Below, piece after piece: positions 9,721 to 36,106 of a stretch of 42,725 nt of DNA (position 1 is the first letter of the stretch; every line of letters starts with the position of its first letter). Below the pieces are notes generated by a model. It had not been told where the DNA came from. It saw only the letters and a program-made list of their open reading frames with translations, and ran no database searches. Both the position numbers and the translations under genes were made by a program. Source of the DNA: a virus. The stretch covers positions 1 through 42,725 of the IMG/VR virus record IMGVR_UViG_3300009136_000013; one strand, given 5' to 3'.

Positions 9721-10437
9721 TTATTTAACTAAAAACAGCTTTTCGACACCTTTTTTACTACCAGTGTCTTTTGTTAAGCTGGAATTTATCTCTTTTTGCC
9801 AGATGCACTCAATTCCTTCAGGTGCGTTATATTCAGATACTAAAACAACATTGCCATATTGGCTCTCGGCGTATTTCTTGCACCACTTCCAAAAGTTGGC
9901 ATGGCTAAAATCGTCCTTATACCCCGCCGTATCCTGGTATGGAGGATCGCAGTAGACGACGCAGTTTTTAGGGGCCCAGTTCTTATATGAGCAACACCGA
10001 AAATCGACATCTCGTAAATTGAGAGATTGCCTCCTTATGTGCCTGCCAGCCTCAGATTGGTAGTTGCGACGCTTGCCCTCTTTGGTAATTATCTTGCCTG
10101 CGAAACCAGAAAACCAGACCCCGTTATAACTACAGCAAACGCCAGCCCAGCCAATAAGCGACAGGGGGTATTTGTGCGGATTAGACTTGTATTCAGCGTA
10201 CTCCTCTTTAGGTATGTACGGAAAGTCTACATCTCCGTCTTGCATCTCTATTAAAAGGGCGATAACATATTGGTTCAGGTCTGAGCCTTGCTTATCGGCA
10301 CATATAATATGCTCAATCATATTAGCACCACCGACAAAAGGCTCGATATAAGTCTTATAACCGCCGGAATCAATAAACCCTTGAATGATTGGGGCTATGT
10401 GCTTTGCGATCCGTCTCTTACTACCCATGTATTTCAT
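9721..10437 (-). CDS. D12-class N6-adenine DNA methyltransferase (Dam-like)
   Basis: 238 residues. The order is MKYMGSKRRIAKHIAP (N-terminal K-x-x-GSK of D12 enzymes), motif I YIEPFVGGANM (about 30-40), GSDLN near 51-55, and the catalytic DPPYQDTAGY (about 164-173; DPPY). Slightly shorter than E. coli Dam (278 aa) but complete in motifs. Likely methylates adenine in a short palindrome, protecting phage DNA or altering regulation. It is the first gene behind the pseudoknot leader at 10453-10526 and its own promoter. Confidence 0.9.
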   Translation of the reverse strand: MKYMGSKRRIAKHIAPIIQGFIDSGGYKTYIEPFVGGANMIEHIICADKQGSDLNQYVIALLIEMQDGDVDFPYIPKEEYAEYKSNPHKYPLSLIGWAGVCCSYNGVWFSGFAGKIITKEGKRRNYQSEAGRHIRRQSLNLRDVDFRCCSYKNWAPKNCVVYCDPPYQDTAGYKDDFSHANFWKWCKKYAESQYGNVVLVSEYNAPEGIECIWQKEINSSLTKDTGSKKGVEKLFLVK

Positions 10438-10452
10438 AATTTAGCCCATTAA

Positions 10453-10526
10453 AAAATCCACATACGTTTGCCCGACAAGACAGTTCGCAGTGGATTTTGT
10501 TGATAAGCTATTTTAGTCTTGTCGGG
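10453..10526 (-). ncRNA. Pseudoknot leader A, upstream of the Dam-like gene
   Basis: Minus-strand order: CCCGACAAGAC (10526-10516), AAAATCCAC (10498-10490), GTCTTGTCGGG (10481-10471), GTGGATTTT (10461-10453). The first and third segments pair over 11 bp and the second and fourth over 9 bp, all Watson-Crick, so the stems interleave in an H-type pseudoknot. It starts about 7 nt after the predicted transcription start and ends 15 nt before ATG 10437, followed by extra Ts. Likely a cis-regulatory leader that controls access to the ribosome site or premature termination. Confidence 0.7.
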
Positions 10527-10539
10527 TATATCTCATTAC

Positions 10540-10567
10540 AATATACCAACTATTTTAAAGAAGTCAA
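10540..10567 (-). promoter_or_regulatory. Promoter of the Dam-like gene
   Basis: Minus strand: TTGACT (10567-10562), 16-nt spacer, TATATT (10545-10540). Expected start about 10533. Part of a block repeated at 11249-11291. Confidence 0.75.
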
Positions 10568-10725: not shown

Positions 10726-10836
10726 TGAGATAGGCAGGAGTCGAACCTGTATAGCCCTAGCAGCTACAGTGTCTATCTAAATCGAACCGGTTTTTGCATC
10801 CGGCACACTCTGGCGATACCATTCCGCCACTATCTC
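10726..10836 (-). tRNA. tRNA-like gene, class II look, anticodon uncertain
   Basis: Minus strand, 111 nt. A perfect 7-bp acceptor stem GAGATAG/CTATCTC with discriminator A; TG then a D-arm GCG...CGC with Leu-like TGGCGGAATGGTA; a T-arm ACAGG-TTCGACT-CCTGC (one mismatched pair); and a variable-arm hairpin GTAGC-TGCTAGG-GCTAT directly before it. The middle is too long. Either CCGGA-TGCAAAA-ACCGG is the anticodon arm (CAA, Leu, with an unusual G at position 33 and a mismatch), or AGTGT/ACACT is the anticodon stem with about 25 extra nt in its loop. No encoded CCA. It could be an unusual functional tRNA, an intron-like insertion, or a decaying gene. Confidence 0.65.
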
Positions 10837-10912: not shown

Positions 10913-11122
10913 TTAATCTTCTACCGGAGAGTCTTCAAGCAAATTGTAGATTTGACTGCCTAAATCAGCCTTGCCTTCTGCAAAGCCGCCATAAAAGGCG
11001 TCGTCGCCATTGCCGCCCCAACCATCCTCCATATTGCTTCGGAGGTCTTCTGGGTCGAGCTGTCCTTCTTGTGCGTCTTTACATAACTGCGTGATCTTTT
11101 CTAACAATTCAACTGTGTTCAT
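10913..11122 (-). CDS. Small acidic protein
   Basis: 69 residues, very acidic (MNTVELLEKITQLCKDAQEG...). An N-terminal helix is followed by a Gly/Asp-rich loop (EDGWGGNGDDAFYGGF). Small acidic early proteins of this kind are often DNA mimics or inhibitors of host enzymes, but nothing specific is recognised. AGAGGTAAG lies just before ATG 11122, itself preceded by pseudoknot leader B. Confidence 0.68.
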   Translation of the reverse strand: MNTVELLEKITQLCKDAQEGQLDPEDLRSNMEDGWGGNGDDAFYGGFAEGKADLGSQIYNLLEDSPVED

Positions 11123-11637: not shown

Positions 11638-11925
11638 CTATTCGTCTTTCTGGTCGTAATAGTAACCGAGCGGATTTAATCCTGACGATAACTTGTGTTT
11701 TTCAACTACTTCAACCACAGCAGGATCATCCGACAATAGCTTTATGTCATCTGCATCGACCGTATTGACTACCTCGGAATGCTTCCCTAATATTTCTCCT
11801 AGATAGACTTCCTTGCCTGTAATCTCCTCGATTTCATCAGAAGTGGCGATAAAAACTCCTTCAACTTCGCCCTGCCTTCCGTAATCCCAAAAGAATCTAT
11901 AGACGCCTTTTTTGCCTTCACTCAT
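11638..11925 (-). CDS. Hypothetical acidic protein
   Basis: 95 residues (MSEGKKGVYRFFWDYGRQGE...). A beta-rich N-terminal half with GVFIATSDEIEEITGKEVYL is followed by an acidic middle and a YYYDQKDE tail. Resembles small phage proteins of unknown function. First gene of the leftward accessory operon, expressed from the promoter near 12170 through a leader of about 220 nt. Confidence 0.7.
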   Translation of the reverse strand: MSEGKKGVYRFFWDYGRQGEVEGVFIATSDEIEEITGKEVYLGEILGKHSEVVNTVDADDIKLLSDDPAVVEVVEKHKLSSGLNPLGYYYDQKDE

Positions 11926-11949
11926 TACTTACACCTCTTTCATTAAAAA

Positions 11950-12016
11950 AACCACCGGCAAGGAACGGTCAGAACCTCACAGGCGGTTGATTCTTTAAAC
12001 ACACATTTTTGACCGT
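11950..12016 (-). ncRNA. Pseudoknot leader D
   Basis: Minus strand: ACGGTCA (12016-12010, written 5' to 3'), AACCGCC (11988-11982), TGACCGT (11971-11965), GGTGGTT (11956-11950). Stem 1 is 7 perfect bp. Stem 2 is 7 bp with one G-U pair that is possible only in the minus-strand RNA. Stem 2 runs into TTTTTTT, so it could also act as an attenuator. It ends 24 nt before ATG 11925. Confidence 0.68.
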
Positions 12017-12039
12017 ATTTCACTGTTTCGCTTTCTACA

Positions 12040-12130
12040 TCCACTCAGGAAGGCTAACCCCAATTATTTAATCCGATCTTCACGTCCGTGCACGGCTCCG
12101 CTACTGCCGGAAACCTTCTGAATGGAATAC
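12040..12130 (-). ncRNA. Further structured leader segment
   Basis: In the same 5' leader, TCAGAAGG (minus, about 12125) can pair with CCTTCCTGA (about 12050) with one bulge, enclosing the palindromic hairpin CCGTGCACGG. No convincing pseudoknot seen. It lies between the promoter at 12154-12181 and leader D. Confidence 0.4.
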
Positions 12131-12153
12131 ATTTGGCGTACTCTACTTCTTAT

Positions 12154-12181
12154 ACTATACACTATTCTTTGCCAAAGTCAA
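12154..12181 (-). promoter_or_regulatory. Promoter of the leftward accessory operon
   Basis: Minus strand: TTGACT (12181-12176), 16-nt spacer, TATAGT (12159-12154). Expected start about 12147. Confidence 0.8.
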
Positions 12182-17763: not shown

Positions 17764-17776
17764 CCTAACTCATCGG

Positions 17777-17831
17777 GCAGGCGGACTTCGCTTTGAGCGG
17801 GGACACGTAACCGCCTGCTCGGTGATGAAGT
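17777..17831 (+). ncRNA. Leader hairpin with weak pseudoknot
   Basis: GCAGGCGG (17777-17784) pairs with CCGCCTGC (17811-17818), 8 bp. ACTTC (17785-17789) can pair with GAAGT (17827-17831) downstream, a 5-bp interleaved stem. Precedes the small gene at 17853. Weaker than the other leaders. Confidence 0.4.
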
Positions 17832-17852
17832 ATAACCTTAAAGGAGTATGTT

Positions 17853-17978
17853 ATGAGTGAATATACAAAAGGGCCGTGGCAAATGCTTGACGGGGAAGAA
17901 ACTACCTTTGCCGAGCTTAAAGAGTCCCTACGCGTCCTACAGGCCGAGATAGCGGCTGTTCGGGCGGAGGTGGAGTAG
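17853..17978 (+). CDS. Small coiled-coil protein (41 aa)
   Basis: MSEYTKGPWQMLDGEETTFA and onward to a helical heptad-like C terminus (LKESLRVLQAEIAAVRAEVE). AAAGGAG lies 8 nt before the ATG. The stop overlaps the next GTG start by one base. Likely real because of the ribosome site and coupling; function unknown. Confidence 0.6.
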   Translation: MSEYTKGPWQMLDGEETTFAELKESLRVLQAEIAAVRAEVE

Positions 17979-19998: not shown

Positions 19999-20507
19999 CC
20001 TGTGAGCAGTGCAAATGGTTCCACTCCCAGCCCCACGACGTCGGCGACAGGCCGTGCGATGGCTGGTGCAGGCGTCATCCTCAGTGGATACACAAGAACA
20101 AGACCACTCTGGGTTGCGGGGATGGCAGTACAGGCAAGGTTCGCCGTGTCAAAGCCAGCCCCGAATACAGTGCCGAGTTCAAAGAGTTCTGGGAAGTGTA
20201 CCCGAATAAGAAAGCGCAGGACGCAGCGTGGCGGGCGTGGAGGGACGAAGACAAGTTACCCCCTCAGCACTACCAACTTGCTATCAAACAGGCTCAGGCG
20301 TACGCTGAGTACGTCACAGACAAAGAACTGAAGCACGTCAAACATCCTGCTACATGGCTTAATGCTGGGTGCTGGAAAGATGTGCTTGAAAAGAAGATCG
20401 GCTCTAAGGCTTGCGTTGATTGCGGTAAAGCGTACCAACAAGGGCATAAATATACTATGAATGGTAGGATTAAGGAATATAGGTGCAAAGAATGCAGAAC
20501 GAAGTAG
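19995..20507 (+). CDS. Replication-initiator-type protein with zinc sites
   Basis: 170 residues. An N-terminal Cys/His cluster (CEQCKWFHS...CRRHPQW) is followed by FKEFWEVYPNKKAQDAAWRA (about 62-81) and HVKHPATWLNAGCWKDVLEK (about 113-132). The FW-x-x-YP-x-K...HP[A/V]TWLN-x-G-x-W pattern is the C-terminal module of many phage replisome organisers and primosomal loaders. A final zinc ribbon (CVDCG...CKEC) closes the protein. No helicase or polymerase is visible nearby, so this is the best candidate for recruiting host replication enzymes. The usual N-terminal DNA-binding winged helix is absent. Confidence 0.68.
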   Translation: MTCEQCKWFHSQPHDVGDRPCDGWCRRHPQWIHKNKTTLGCGDGSTGKVRRVKASPEYSAEFKEFWEVYPNKKAQDAAWRAWRDEDKLPPQHYQLAIKQAQAYAEYVTDKELKHVKHPATWLNAGCWKDVLEKKIGSKACVDCGKAYQQGHKYTMNGRIKEYRCKECRTK

Positions 20508-20704
20508 AAAAACTAATCGGTCCATCAAATGACCGTCAAATAAGAAAACCCGCTTTAGAGCCTGAAAAGGCCGATGCTACACCGAATGTAACAATTCCAT
20601 CAAATAAGCATCAAATAGGAAATAAGCTTCTTGAAGAGGTGAGGGCGTATAGGGACAGGACGTGTCCTTTACTGGTGGTGAAGAAAAAAGAAACCAAAAC
20701 TTGA
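20492..20704 (+). CDS. Small hypothetical protein
   Basis: 70 residues from ATG 20492 (an upstream in-frame GTG lies at 20483). MQNEVEKLIGPSNDRQ is followed by a basic, low-complexity body ending KKKETKT. Overlaps the previous gene by 16 nt. The stop codon lies inside the -35 of the next promoter. Probably disordered; function unknown. Confidence 0.58.
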   Translation: MQNEVEKLIGPSNDRQIRKPALEPEKADATPNVTIPSNKHQIGNKLLEEVRAYRDRTCPLLVVKKKETKT

Positions 20705-20729
20705 CAAGCATAACTTTATAGGGTATAGT
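20701..20729 (+). promoter_or_regulatory. Consensus sigma70 promoter
   Basis: TTGACA (20701-20706), exactly 17 nt, TATAGT (20724-20729). The best promoter in the window together with 22620-22648. Expected start about 20736, directly before pseudoknot leader E. Confidence 0.88.
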
Positions 20730-20738
20730 TAATTATAT

Positions 20739-20828
20739 GGCCAAGAGATTACGAAATTTTGAACTTTCCCGCAACCGACAAGGCACCTCCTGTCTAATCT
20801 CTTGGCCGAGTATTACGTTGGTTGCGGG
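20739..20828 (+). ncRNA. Pseudoknot leader E
   Basis: GGCCAAGAGATTA (20739-20751) pairs with TAATCTCTTGGCC (20795-20807), 13 perfect bp. CCCGCAACC (20768-20776) in that loop pairs with GGTTGCGGG (20820-20828), 9 perfect bp: a clear H-type pseudoknot. The loop also carries CACCTCCT (about 20784-20791), complementary to the ribosome site AAGGTGA before ATG 20850, so two exclusive states are possible. It starts within about 3 nt of the predicted transcript start and ends 21 nt before the ATG. Confidence 0.78.
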
Positions 20829-20849
20829 TATTTCTTTTAAGGTGATATA

Positions 20850-21185
20850 ATGAGTTTAGATTTAACGATAATTAAAACGTGTAGCGAGTGCAAGCATTGC
20901 GACTACGAAACCTTTAATATGACTCACAACATGACAGCTATGGCAGATGAAGCTGGTATTTACGACTGCTTATGGCGACCAGAAGAGAACGGATACCAGA
21001 CAGCTGGGCAGATAATCCCGGTGCTTGAAGCTGGCATTAAGGCAATGGAAGCTGATTCTGTCAGATTCAAGGCTTTTAATCCGAAAAACGGCTGGGGCGA
21101 TTATACAGTTTTCTTGCAATGGCTTAAAAAGGTGCTTGCTGCCTGTGAAAAGAACCCCGACTATGAAATAGAAGCCAATCACTAA
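20850..21185 (+). CDS. Hypothetical Cys-containing protein
   Basis: 111 residues. CSECKHCDYE near 10-19 and a further Cys near 40 may bind metal. A helical middle (IIPVLEAGIKAMEADSVRF) is followed by an aromatic GWGDYTVFLQWL segment (about 80-91). Starts at ATG 20850 behind AAGGTGA and under leader E. No family recognised. Confidence 0.7.
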   Translation: MSLDLTIIKTCSECKHCDYETFNMTHNMTAMADEAGIYDCLWRPEENGYQTAGQIIPVLEAGIKAMEADSVRFKAFNPKNGWGDYTVFLQWLKKVLAACEKNPDYEIEANH

Positions 21186-21222
21186 CCCCCTTCCCCCCGG
21201 AAGGACTATAGGAGTAAAGACA

Positions 21223-21669
21223 ATGGATAGCAAGTATAAATTCGTTTTAGAAAATAAAGAAGGTCGGAAAGTAACCACTCGGGCGTACACTCTGGACGAG
21301 ATAATGGAATACGACATGGACGACCGCATACGTGTCGATCTTACAGAAAAGTATGCCTGCGACGGCAATTGCACGAACGAGTCTAATAACTTCTGTGAGT
21401 GCGGAGGGGCGTTTGATGACCACGAAATCACAGACAAGTTGCAATGGACAGGCTTGCAGGATAAGAACGGGGTAGATATGTATGAGGGGGACTGGTGGGA
21501 AGGCTCATGGGTACAGCAAGGCTCTAAGAGGAAAATACGCGGCCCGATACAATGGTGTCAAGATATGGCTGGCTGGATTATTAACGATCAAATAAGAGAC
21601 ACTCGCTTAATAGGGGGGTGGAATCACATGACAGAAGGCGAAGTTATAGAGAAAGGAAAGATAGAATGA
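21223..21669 (+). CDS. YopX-like protein
   Basis: 148 residues. LQWTGLQDKNGVDMYEGDWW (about 73-92) is the YopX signature (Q-[Y/W]-TGLxDKNGxxxYEGD), followed by the expected beta strands and a C-terminal GGWNHMTEGEVIEKG. An N-terminal Cys cluster (CDGNC...CECGG) is extra. YopX proteins are common in phage early regions and have no established function. AGGAGTAAAGAC before the ATG; the stop overlaps the next ATG. Confidence 0.8.
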   Translation: MDSKYKFVLENKEGRKVTTRAYTLDEIMEYDMDDRIRVDLTEKYACDGNCTNESNNFCECGGAFDDHEITDKLQWTGLQDKNGVDMYEGDWWEGSWVQQGSKRKIRGPIQWCQDMAGWIINDQIRDTRLIGGWNHMTEGEVIEKGKIE

Positions 21670-22619: not shown

Positions 22620-22648
22620 TTGACAAATATACCGTCATAGTGTATAGT
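22620..22648 (+). promoter_or_regulatory. Consensus sigma70 promoter
   Basis: TTGACA (22620-22625), 17 nt, TATAGT (22643-22648), identical in -35, spacing and -10 to the promoter at 20701. Expected start about 22655. Confidence 0.87.
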
Positions 22649-22675
22649 ATGTATGGCTAGGTTCATTACCGAAAA

Positions 22676-22716
22676 GCGGGACACCTTGACCCGCCTGCCA
22701 TCCAACTATATCAAGG
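22676..22716 (+). ncRNA. Pseudoknot leader F
   Basis: GCGGG (22676-22680) pairs with CCCGC (22690-22694). CCTTGA (22684-22689) inside that loop pairs with TCAAGG (22711-22716), a compact classical H-type pseudoknot with a 9-nt first loop. ATGGC/GCCAT may close an outer stem. AAGGA occurs at about 22714 and again at about 22725, the second forming the ribosome site; two GGA sites this close are the arrangement a CsrA dimer can bridge. It ends 21 nt before ATG 22738. Confidence 0.7.
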
Positions 22717-22737: not shown

Positions 22738-22818
22738 ATGAAACAGATTGAACTCACACGAGGAGATGCCGCAATAAAAGAAGTAAGGGGTGAATTTGCG
22801 AGGCTTAATAATGTCTAA
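22738..22818 (+). CDS. Short leader peptide (26 aa)
   Basis: MKQIELTRGDAAIKEVRGEF and onward. ATG 22738 is the first start after leader F, with AAGGA upstream. Its stop overlaps the nuclease ATG at 22811, so translating this peptide probably delivers ribosomes to the nuclease start. Confidence 0.55.
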   Translation: MKQIELTRGDAAIKEVRGEFARLNNV

Positions 22819-34788: not shown

Positions 34789-34922
34789 TTCTTTGTCCGT
34801 TTCCTTTTAAAGAGTTTGGCTATCTTACGTTTAATCAGCAAGTCAGCGACCGGCTTATTTACATTATCAAGGACTCCGCCTGCCGGAGACATTCCGTACG
34901 GTTTCAATAGTACAATTTTCAT
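34785..34922 (-). CDS. Small head-tail operon protein (45 aa)
   Basis: MKIVLLKPYGMSPAGGVLDN and onward to a VADLLIKRKIAKLFKRKR close. Short proteins of this form (strand, PxGxVxDV, then ADxLIxRGxA) sit in front of connector genes in many siphoviruses. ATGA overlaps at both ends show coupled translation. Confidence 0.75.
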   Translation of the reverse strand: MKIVLLKPYGMSPAGGVLDNVNKPVADLLIKRKIAKLFKRKRTKK

Positions 34923-36106
34923 TTCAATAACTCCACTTTAGGTACGCAATGTTCCGGCCATTGGCCACGGTCAAGCTGATTCATGTAATAATGCACTGGC
35001 TTAAAAGCTTTCCGGGCCGGTCCGGGGAATGTACACATCATTTGCATATGCCCGAGCATCACGCTCGGTGCAAGGCAAGCTTTCCTGCCTTCTTTATGGA
35101 AGTTATGCCAGAAGTGTATGTCTTCGTCGATTCTGCCTTCGCCCCACTCGCCGGCTTCGTTTGGATGAGCTAAGAACCACGGCTTTGCTAATCCCTCGAA
35201 AGCAGACACCCGGAATATCGTTAAGCCGAAATGCCCAGTAACTATCGGGACTAAATCCCCGTCAAACTCTGTTATTGGGGTTAATTTGGGGTTTCCTTCC
35301 TCATCCATAATAGCAAACATAGGCGTCTCGTTTTCCCTCTTTACTTGAACGGGAACGATAGCGTCGACGTCTGGGTTTTCTGCCATCAACTGCAATAGTC
35401 TGATTACGTGCTCTTCCCTGAATGCTGTATCGTAATCGAGCGTTATTACAAACTCGGTTCCGTCGTTTCGGTGTTGATCGATTAGCCTCGACAGCTTTTG
35501 TCCCCAGAACACGCCTGTAGCCGTATCTATTTCGATTCCAAGCTTAGGGAATACTTTCGTAGTGGCGAACATATTCGCAGTAAAGCCTAATCTCGGCAGA
35601 GTCATCACTGCCCTTGTCTTTAGCGGTAGTCCGCCCGGCTTCGTGCCTTCCAGATTCAGGCTTATTGGTAAATTAGAACAATCGTCAAACTGCGCCTGAA
35701 ATACCCGAATATCTTGCAGTCCAGCGGCTTCCATTAGCTGCTTTAGGACCGTATGGGTAAACAGCGACCTGTGGAAGTCGTTATTGTCATCCTGCCCGCC
35801 CATAATGTAATCGTCTGGCGAATGCTGACCTTTTTTCTGGCTCTTGTACTCTTCGATGACCTTATCGAAGTCCGGAACGGCTATCTGCAGAAGCCCACCC
35901 GGACGGAGTTTGTCTACCCAGTCGCGGAGTACGGGCAATCTTTCCTTTTTGCCGAAATGCTCAAGCAAATGAGACGCCCTGATTTCGTCGACTTCACCGC
36001 TATTGTATCTCAGCGGATAGGCGTTGTTGCCGTCAGCCAGATCGAGGTTCTCGTATCCTTCTAAATGTAGTTCTTTAGGGCCACTGCCCAGATTTAATTT
36101 TAGCAT
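34919..36106 (-). CDS. Methyltransferase-glycosyltransferase-like fusion
   Basis: 395 residues, two halves. Residues 1-150 form a class I SAM methyltransferase-like domain: LNLGSGPKELHLEGYENLDL (about 3-22; the GSG glycine loop), LLEHFGKKERLPVLRDW, and LRPGGLLQIAVPDFDKVIEE. Residues 160-390 resemble a GT-A glycosyltransferase: MLPRLGFTANMFATTKVFP-like start, EFVITLDYDTAFREEHVIRL (D-x-D at about 225), then VDAIVPVQVK and a DEDIHFWHNFHKEG close typical of GT2-type enzymes. Between the capsid genes and the connector genes, so modification of the virion is a natural guess. AAAGGAAAACTATT before ATG. Confidence 0.75.
   Translation of the reverse strand: MLKLNLGSGPKELHLEGYENLDLADGNNAYPLRYNSGEVDEIRASHLLEHFGKKERLPVLRDWVDKLRPGGLLQIAVPDFDKVIEEYKSQKKGQHSPDDYIMGGQDDNNDFHRSLFTHTVLKQLMEAAGLQDIRVFQAQFDDCSNLPISLNLEGTKPGGLPLKTRAVMTLPRLGFTANMFATTKVFPKLGIEIDTATGVFWGQKLSRLIDQHRNDGTEFVITLDYDTAFREEHVIRLLQLMAENPDVDAIVPVQVKRENETPMFAIMDEEGNPKLTPITEFDGDLVPIVTGHFGLTIFRVSAFEGLAKPWFLAHPNEAGEWGEGRIDEDIHFWHNFHKEGRKACLAPSVMLGHMQMMCTFPGPARKAFKPVHYYMNQLDRGQWPEHCVPKVELLK

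Follow-up and report, generated by a model that had tools for sequence, protein, structure and literature searches.

How is the gene at 20850 controlled by the DNA that separates it from the promoter at 20701? The whole stretch analysed here (hereafter the window) is a virus record of 42,725 bases with phage genes, including those for a terminase (about 42% identical to its closest match, from Marinobacter phage AS1), a major head protein, and Erf and RecE-like recombination proteins. A replication-initiation-like protein gene lies just 5' of the leader, which we call element A and which consists of the following parts.

20701-20729, + strand: phage-type promoter TTGACA-17-TATAGT with the ATAGGGTATAGT core
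20739-20751 / 20795-20807, + strand: arms of stem S1, 13 bp, all Watson-Crick
20768-20779 / 20817-20828, + strand: arms of stem S2, 12 bp including one G-U pair, interleaved with S1
20780-20794, + strand: loop L2, AAGGCACCTCCTGTC, containing the 16S anti-SD-like CACCTCCT at 20784-20791
20829-20838, + strand: terminator-like U-run TATTTCTTTT, adjoining S2 without a spacer
20839-20852, + strand: SD AAGGTG (20839-20844) and start codon ATG (20850-20852)
20850-21185, + strand: downstream gene, 111 aa, phrog_4019-like, function unknown

The first-pass annotation had described a consensus promoter leading into a pseudoknot of a 13-bp and a 9-bp stem. The promoter is indeed present, with TTGACA at 20701-20706, a spacer of 17 nt and TATAGT at 20724-20729, giving 11 of 12 matches to the consensus. 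Taken alone, it is weakly notable against chance; the window has three sites with at most one mismatch, where 1.1 would be expected. At spacers of up to 70 nt, S1 exceeds every other perfect inverted repeat of the 42.7-kb window in length. S2 is G+C-rich, with CCCGC/GCGGG at its base and 37 nt between its arms, and the 9 bp originally assigned to it are the outer part of the 12 bp. At the sequence level, the interleaving of S1 and S2 constitutes an H-type pseudoknot, as had been claimed. The summed score of the two stems was 62, which exceeded the maximum of 51 in 40 dinucleotide shuffles of the whole window and was reached in none of 3000 shuffles of the leader itself. The best nested fold of the leader has an energy of about -33.6 kcal/mol, and the pseudoknot was estimated at -38 to -41 kcal/mol, a crude value obtained from helix sums and a literature-type pseudoknot penalty. 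A leaderless 37-codon frame from 20737 was considered as a leader peptide and rejected, the corresponding frames in two related leaders, B and D, stopping within a few codons. Tandem direct repeats of about 35-45 nt, as in type III toxin-antitoxin RNAs, were not found in 20500-21300.

Neither the U-run nor four sister elements in the window had been part of the first-pass annotation. Of the latter, B, D and E were found by folding the DNA behind promoter-like sites and by scanning for U-tailed H-type pseudoknots.

10437-10567, - strand: element B, promoter TTGACT-16-TATATT (10567-10540), S1 10526-10516/10481-10471, S2 10498-10490/10461-10453, then TTTTTT and the ATG of a D12 DNA methyltransferase gene (9721-10437)
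22620-22716, + strand: element C, promoter TTGACA-17-TATAGT (22620-22648), which drives the int-alpA RNA RF02996 (22650-22716)
11120-11276, - strand: element D, promoter TTGACT-16-TATAGT (11276-11249), S1 11232-11223/11176-11167, S2 11195-11189/11158-11152, U-run TTTTCTTTT, then a gene of 69 aa (10913-11122)
11923-12181, - strand: element E, promoter TTGACT-16-TATAGT (12181-12154), about 130 nt of further structure, S1 12016-12010/11971-11965, S2 11988-11982/11956-11950, U-run, then a phrog_5848 gene (11638-11925)

The scan, carried out on both strands of the window, returned exactly four sites, A, B, D and E, with scores of 62, 50, 42 and 34, respectively, and 15 shuffles gave three hits with a maximum of 33. 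When the four leaders were shuffled individually, their scores were reached in 0/3000, 0/3000, 0/3000 and 2/2000 cases. All four pseudoknots lie about 15-29 nt 5' of a start codon and behind the shared promoter type. B, D and E have the topology of A with different stem sequences; L3 measures 8-9 nt throughout, and L1 (16-27 nt) and L2 (8-15 nt) are variable. Over about 28 nt, the promoters of B and D are almost identical; their leaders share no sequence. The pseudoknots of A, B and D begin no more than about 10 nt from the point where transcription is predicted to start, and that of E about 130 nt after its promoter. The downstream genes are unrelated to each other, and the SD of the methyltransferase gene behind B is weak. 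By the same crude energy estimate, nested folds are better than the pseudoknot in D and E. An extension of S2 by L2:L3 pairing into a long terminator hairpin was significant in E only and weak in B, and was discarded as a class-wide feature. Between the promoter and the pseudoknot of E, at 12030-12150 (- strand), a strong branched structure (CCATTCAGAAGG...CCTTCCTGAGTGG) was observed, with no Rfam match.

The motif TTGACW-N7-14-ATAG-N1-4-GTATADT occurs five times in the window (A, B, C, D and E), against 0.01 per shuffled window; since the motif was defined from these five sites, this count is partly circular. It is independent of the definition of the motif that the window holds no sixth copy without a pseudoknot. 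As for the U-run, at least seven T in eight within 45 nt upstream of a start are found only in A, D and E among 55 genes, and B has six T in a row. The U-run therefore belongs to the element. It was also a search criterion of the scan; without it, A, B and D stay the top promoter-linked non-coding hits, and element E rests partly on it.

Element C matches RF02996 above the gathering score (52 bits). In C, the loop CCTTGA (22684-22689) can pair with TCAAGG (22711-22716), and the apical loop and the 3' end covary in 24 int-alpA sequences (CCTTGA/TCAAGG in C; CCCTG/CAGGG, ACCCTA/TAGGGT and GCCTTC/GAAGGC elsewhere). When the int-alpA tails were dealt anew, the observed pairing was reached in none of 500 trials. 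The covariation supports a pseudoknot of C's own, and all five promoters would therefore precede an RNA able to form one. C has no U-run. In the other genomes examined, int-alpA has no strong sigma-70 promoter just upstream. Of 369 genomes from the class to which a Neisseriaceae MAG belongs, 38 had int-alpA above the cut-off, which fits a proteobacterial host of the phage without proving it. After C come a 26-codon ORF (ATG at 22738) and a gene whose product weakly resembles TnsA-like endonucleases.

Is the leader known elsewhere? Element A gave no Rfam match, RF02996 included, in agreement with the first-pass annotation, which had proposed a switch with no known ligand class. Applied to about 3.8 Mb of loci from other phages and prophages, the U-tailed scan found one strong further case, on the 138.8-kb contig G001 (L006/L229), with a score of 66, an L3 of 9 nt, CCTTTTT, an SD and an ATG. 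This pseudoknot precedes a gene for a ParB_N/DNA-methylase protein. The contig is unrelated to the window phage, and that it also carries a homologue of the gene behind A is probably a coincidence. With the Rfam covariance models, at permissive thresholds too, the leaders of A, B, D, E and G001 gave chance matches only. Two other hits, on L335 and L339, are possible but weak. Interleaved inverted repeats at L271:15206 (+ strand) were discounted; they hold DnaA-box-like TATCCACAG motifs and are probably a replication origin. The same scan without the U-run gave about 1000 hits in 3.9 Mb, many of them GC-rich or coding, and is thus not specific alone. Further interleaved stems on G001, at L229:3245-3340 (+ strand), end like a canonical terminator (AAAAAGCCCA...TGGGCTTTTT) and have no gene directly after them; they are possibly a pseudoknotted terminator or small RNA gene. 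Clustered TGCAGTGCAACACCCCC-type repeats with interleaved palindromes, the same repeat in each, were seen in L055, L071 and L090, which are of a related phage group.

Homologues of the downstream genes were also inspected. Those of gene A, on four viral and 29 genome contigs, showed no U-tailed pseudoknot at the genome loci, and none was seen before the gene wherever its upstream sequence was displayed. Homologues of the E gene and of the B methyltransferase elsewhere likewise had no such leader. These homologous genes have ordinary RBSs, and the leader is therefore a property of the phage and not of the genes. No relatives of A were found in the collections searched, and its stems have no covariation support. 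An exact S1 pattern gave no match. A search of viral contigs for the loop CAAGGCACCTCCTG gave 95 stretches, in none of which flanking stems were seen by eye. Relatives of the upstream genes, used as anchors, led to one weak locus, and matches to the B/D promoter string in viral contigs were mostly unrelated.

To the reading that the gene at 20850 has in element A a cis-acting, pseudoknotted 5' leader we give a probability of roughly three in four. The phage has placed several such leaders behind one promoter type, which suggests a reusable control element rather than a single ligand switch. The order of promoter, interleaved stems, U-run adjoining S2, SD and ATG is present in A and repeated in B, D and E; from structure, position and recurrence, which are what the DNA alone displays, we infer a mode of action. 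Because the U-run belongs to the element, attenuation is ranked first, at slightly less than even odds. Transcription would start near 20736, and S1 would fold first. S2 would then pair across S1 and complete the H-type pseudoknot just as RNA polymerase gets to the U-run, so that the two together would make up an intrinsic terminator, or a pause site, closed by a pseudoknot. The majority of transcripts would stop at a length of about 100 nt; expression of the gene would require that S2 be kept from forming, by a phage or host factor, an antiterminating polymerase or a competing fold. The contact between U-run and stem, as in intrinsic terminators, argues for attenuation. On the other hand, S2 spans a loop of 37 nt, unlike ordinary terminators, and int-alpA shares the promoter type without a U-run, which is thus not class-wide. 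No antitermination factor for the leaders was identified. As a doubtful extension, the phage may possess a regulon in which one phage-type promoter and a sequence-unrelated, geometrically fixed pseudoknot-terminator (L3 of 8-9 nt) gate several early accessory genes together in response to a single signal of the infection stage, for instance antitermination or an RNA-binding protein of the phage.

The main rival is a constitutive high-expression leader, whose pseudoknot would shield the mRNA from 5'-end-dependent decay and keep the U-rich SD region open, with no switching, much like the leader of gene 10 in phage T7. This reading, which makes the opposite prediction to an attenuator when S2 is broken, seems somewhat unlikely to us. 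In A, B, D and G001, the pseudoknot begins about 0-10 nt from where the transcript is predicted to start, the promoter and SD are strong with a U-rich stretch 5' of the SD, and unrelated downstream genes would suit a generic leader, as would an int-alpA RNA without a U-run. However, a single hairpin would be enough for protection, the pseudoknot of E is about 130 nt away from its promoter, and a ribosomal S1 site would not need a U-run set on the stem without a spacer. The U/A-rich region that runs through the RBS after the pseudoknot in all four leaders would also be consistent with a translational operator, in which a phage RNA-binding protein binds the pseudoknot and covers the RBS, as T4 gp32 does on gene 32 mRNA (PMC3014915). 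One protein could control all genes of the set, and the int-alpA pseudoknot also ends near an RBS. Nevertheless, we consider such an operator unlikely, as neither the loops nor the stems of the leaders visibly share primary sequence, a candidate protein was not found, and the downstream genes do not include that of a single-stranded DNA-binding protein.

An own promoter and a terminator-like end would be expected of stand-alone sRNA genes too, and the fifth member, int-alpA, is an sRNA gene in Rfam. The downstream gene would then be a bystander, and an RNA of about 100 nt would act in trans, for example by its CACCUCCU loop on SD sequences. The 8-mer CACCTCCT, which is identical to the 16S anti-SD, is contained in only 0.1% of shuffled leaders; it was, however, noticed after the fact, and the C-rich loop occurs in A only, the 8-mer being absent from the sister leaders B, D and E. 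Since all four pseudoknots stand about 15-29 nt before a start codon, and the pairing with genes that have no leader elsewhere is a choice of this phage, we regard sRNA genes as improbable. The same loop had led the first-pass annotation to a two-state switch, responding to a metabolite or to CsrA, in which L2 would mask the gene's own SD. Two competing folds are thermodynamically possible, and a small hairpin can present CACCU, the exact complement of AGGUG. The complementarity to the own SD nevertheless amounts to 5 nt (CACCU/AGGUG, with AGGTG at 20840-20844), a match also attained by 45% of shuffled leaders and, among shuffled loops, by 10%, so that masking of the SD by the loop is at chance level; CACCU is also absent as a loop feature from B, D and E. 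With no GGA in the transcript 20736-20860, CsrA is an unlikely regulator. A metabolite is not indicated either, because an aptamer would, in our view, be expected to share a core sequence, which is not visible among the sister leaders; nor is there an Rfam riboswitch match. A switch of this kind is thus very improbable. Least probable of all is that the inverted repeats arose by chance or act at the DNA level, for example as palindromes bound by a protein. The DnaA-box-like repeats on L271 demonstrate that comparable false positives exist, but the shuffle tests and the five-fold recurrence behind one promoter motif argue against this.

Comparison with known systems places the leader near several of them. 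Like A, intrinsic terminators and attenuators have, between promoter and gene, a G+C-rich stem to which a U-run is joined directly. Their apical loop is short (about 3-10 nt), whereas that of A spans 37 nt and a second helix passes through it; a simple terminator scan did not report A. The T7 gene 10 leader has a 5' simple hairpin, a U-rich stretch, an SD and an A/T-rich spacer; this order is common to A, in which a pseudoknot takes the place of the hairpin. The int-alpA RNA resembles A in that copy C lies behind the same promoter type and has a pseudoknot of its own, for int-alpA a covarying one, whose 3' strand ends near an RBS; it differs as a short hairpin pseudoknot with no U-run, and A has no model match. 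The HK022 put RNA is also a structured RNA right after a phage promoter, with no known ligand. It consists, however, of two consecutive stem-loops and acts on distant terminators, whereas the stems of A are interleaved and directly followed by a U-run and an RBS (PMC9378689).

The T4-type gene 32 leader is alike in having an H-type pseudoknot in a phage mRNA leader and a U/A-rich stretch through the RBS (PMC3014915). Here, in contrast, four unrelated genes carry the leaders, the stems are long (7-14 bp) with an adjoining U-run, and the distance to the start is 21 nt in A against 67 nt in gene 32; no autoregulation is known for A. The leader of an SSB gene, as in a gene 32-type operator, was not found, the gene behind A being phrog_4019-like and that behind B a D12 methyltransferase. 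According to a 2010 review, the gene 32 pseudoknot is possibly the sole viral case in translation autoregulation (PMC3014915). Pseudoknots in phage mRNA leaders are rare. The genome studied here has four before unrelated genes, all under the shared promoter type, and the fifth copy of this promoter drives int-alpA, a catalogued RNA that has a pseudoknot as well. The set permits a direct test of a fold that is independent of sequence as a gene-control cassette of phages, and int-alpA gains a promoter context that is open to study.

Three further structures were observed in the window. Between D and B, 10726-10836 (- strand) is tRNA-like (Rfam tRNA, 31.4 bits); its length of 111 nt implies an unusual insert or a long variable arm, and ARAGORN gave no report. 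At 17770-17852 (+ strand), an intercistronic 15-bp hairpin has a possible second stem (CTTTGAG/CTTAAAG), which overlaps the SD of the ORF that begins at 17853 (41 codons); there is no promoter before the hairpin. Finally, the 3' arm of a 12-bp inverted repeat at 36115-36126/36187-36198 (- strand) holds the SD AAAAGGA of the gene at 34919-36106, and this repeat may form an SD-masking hairpin.
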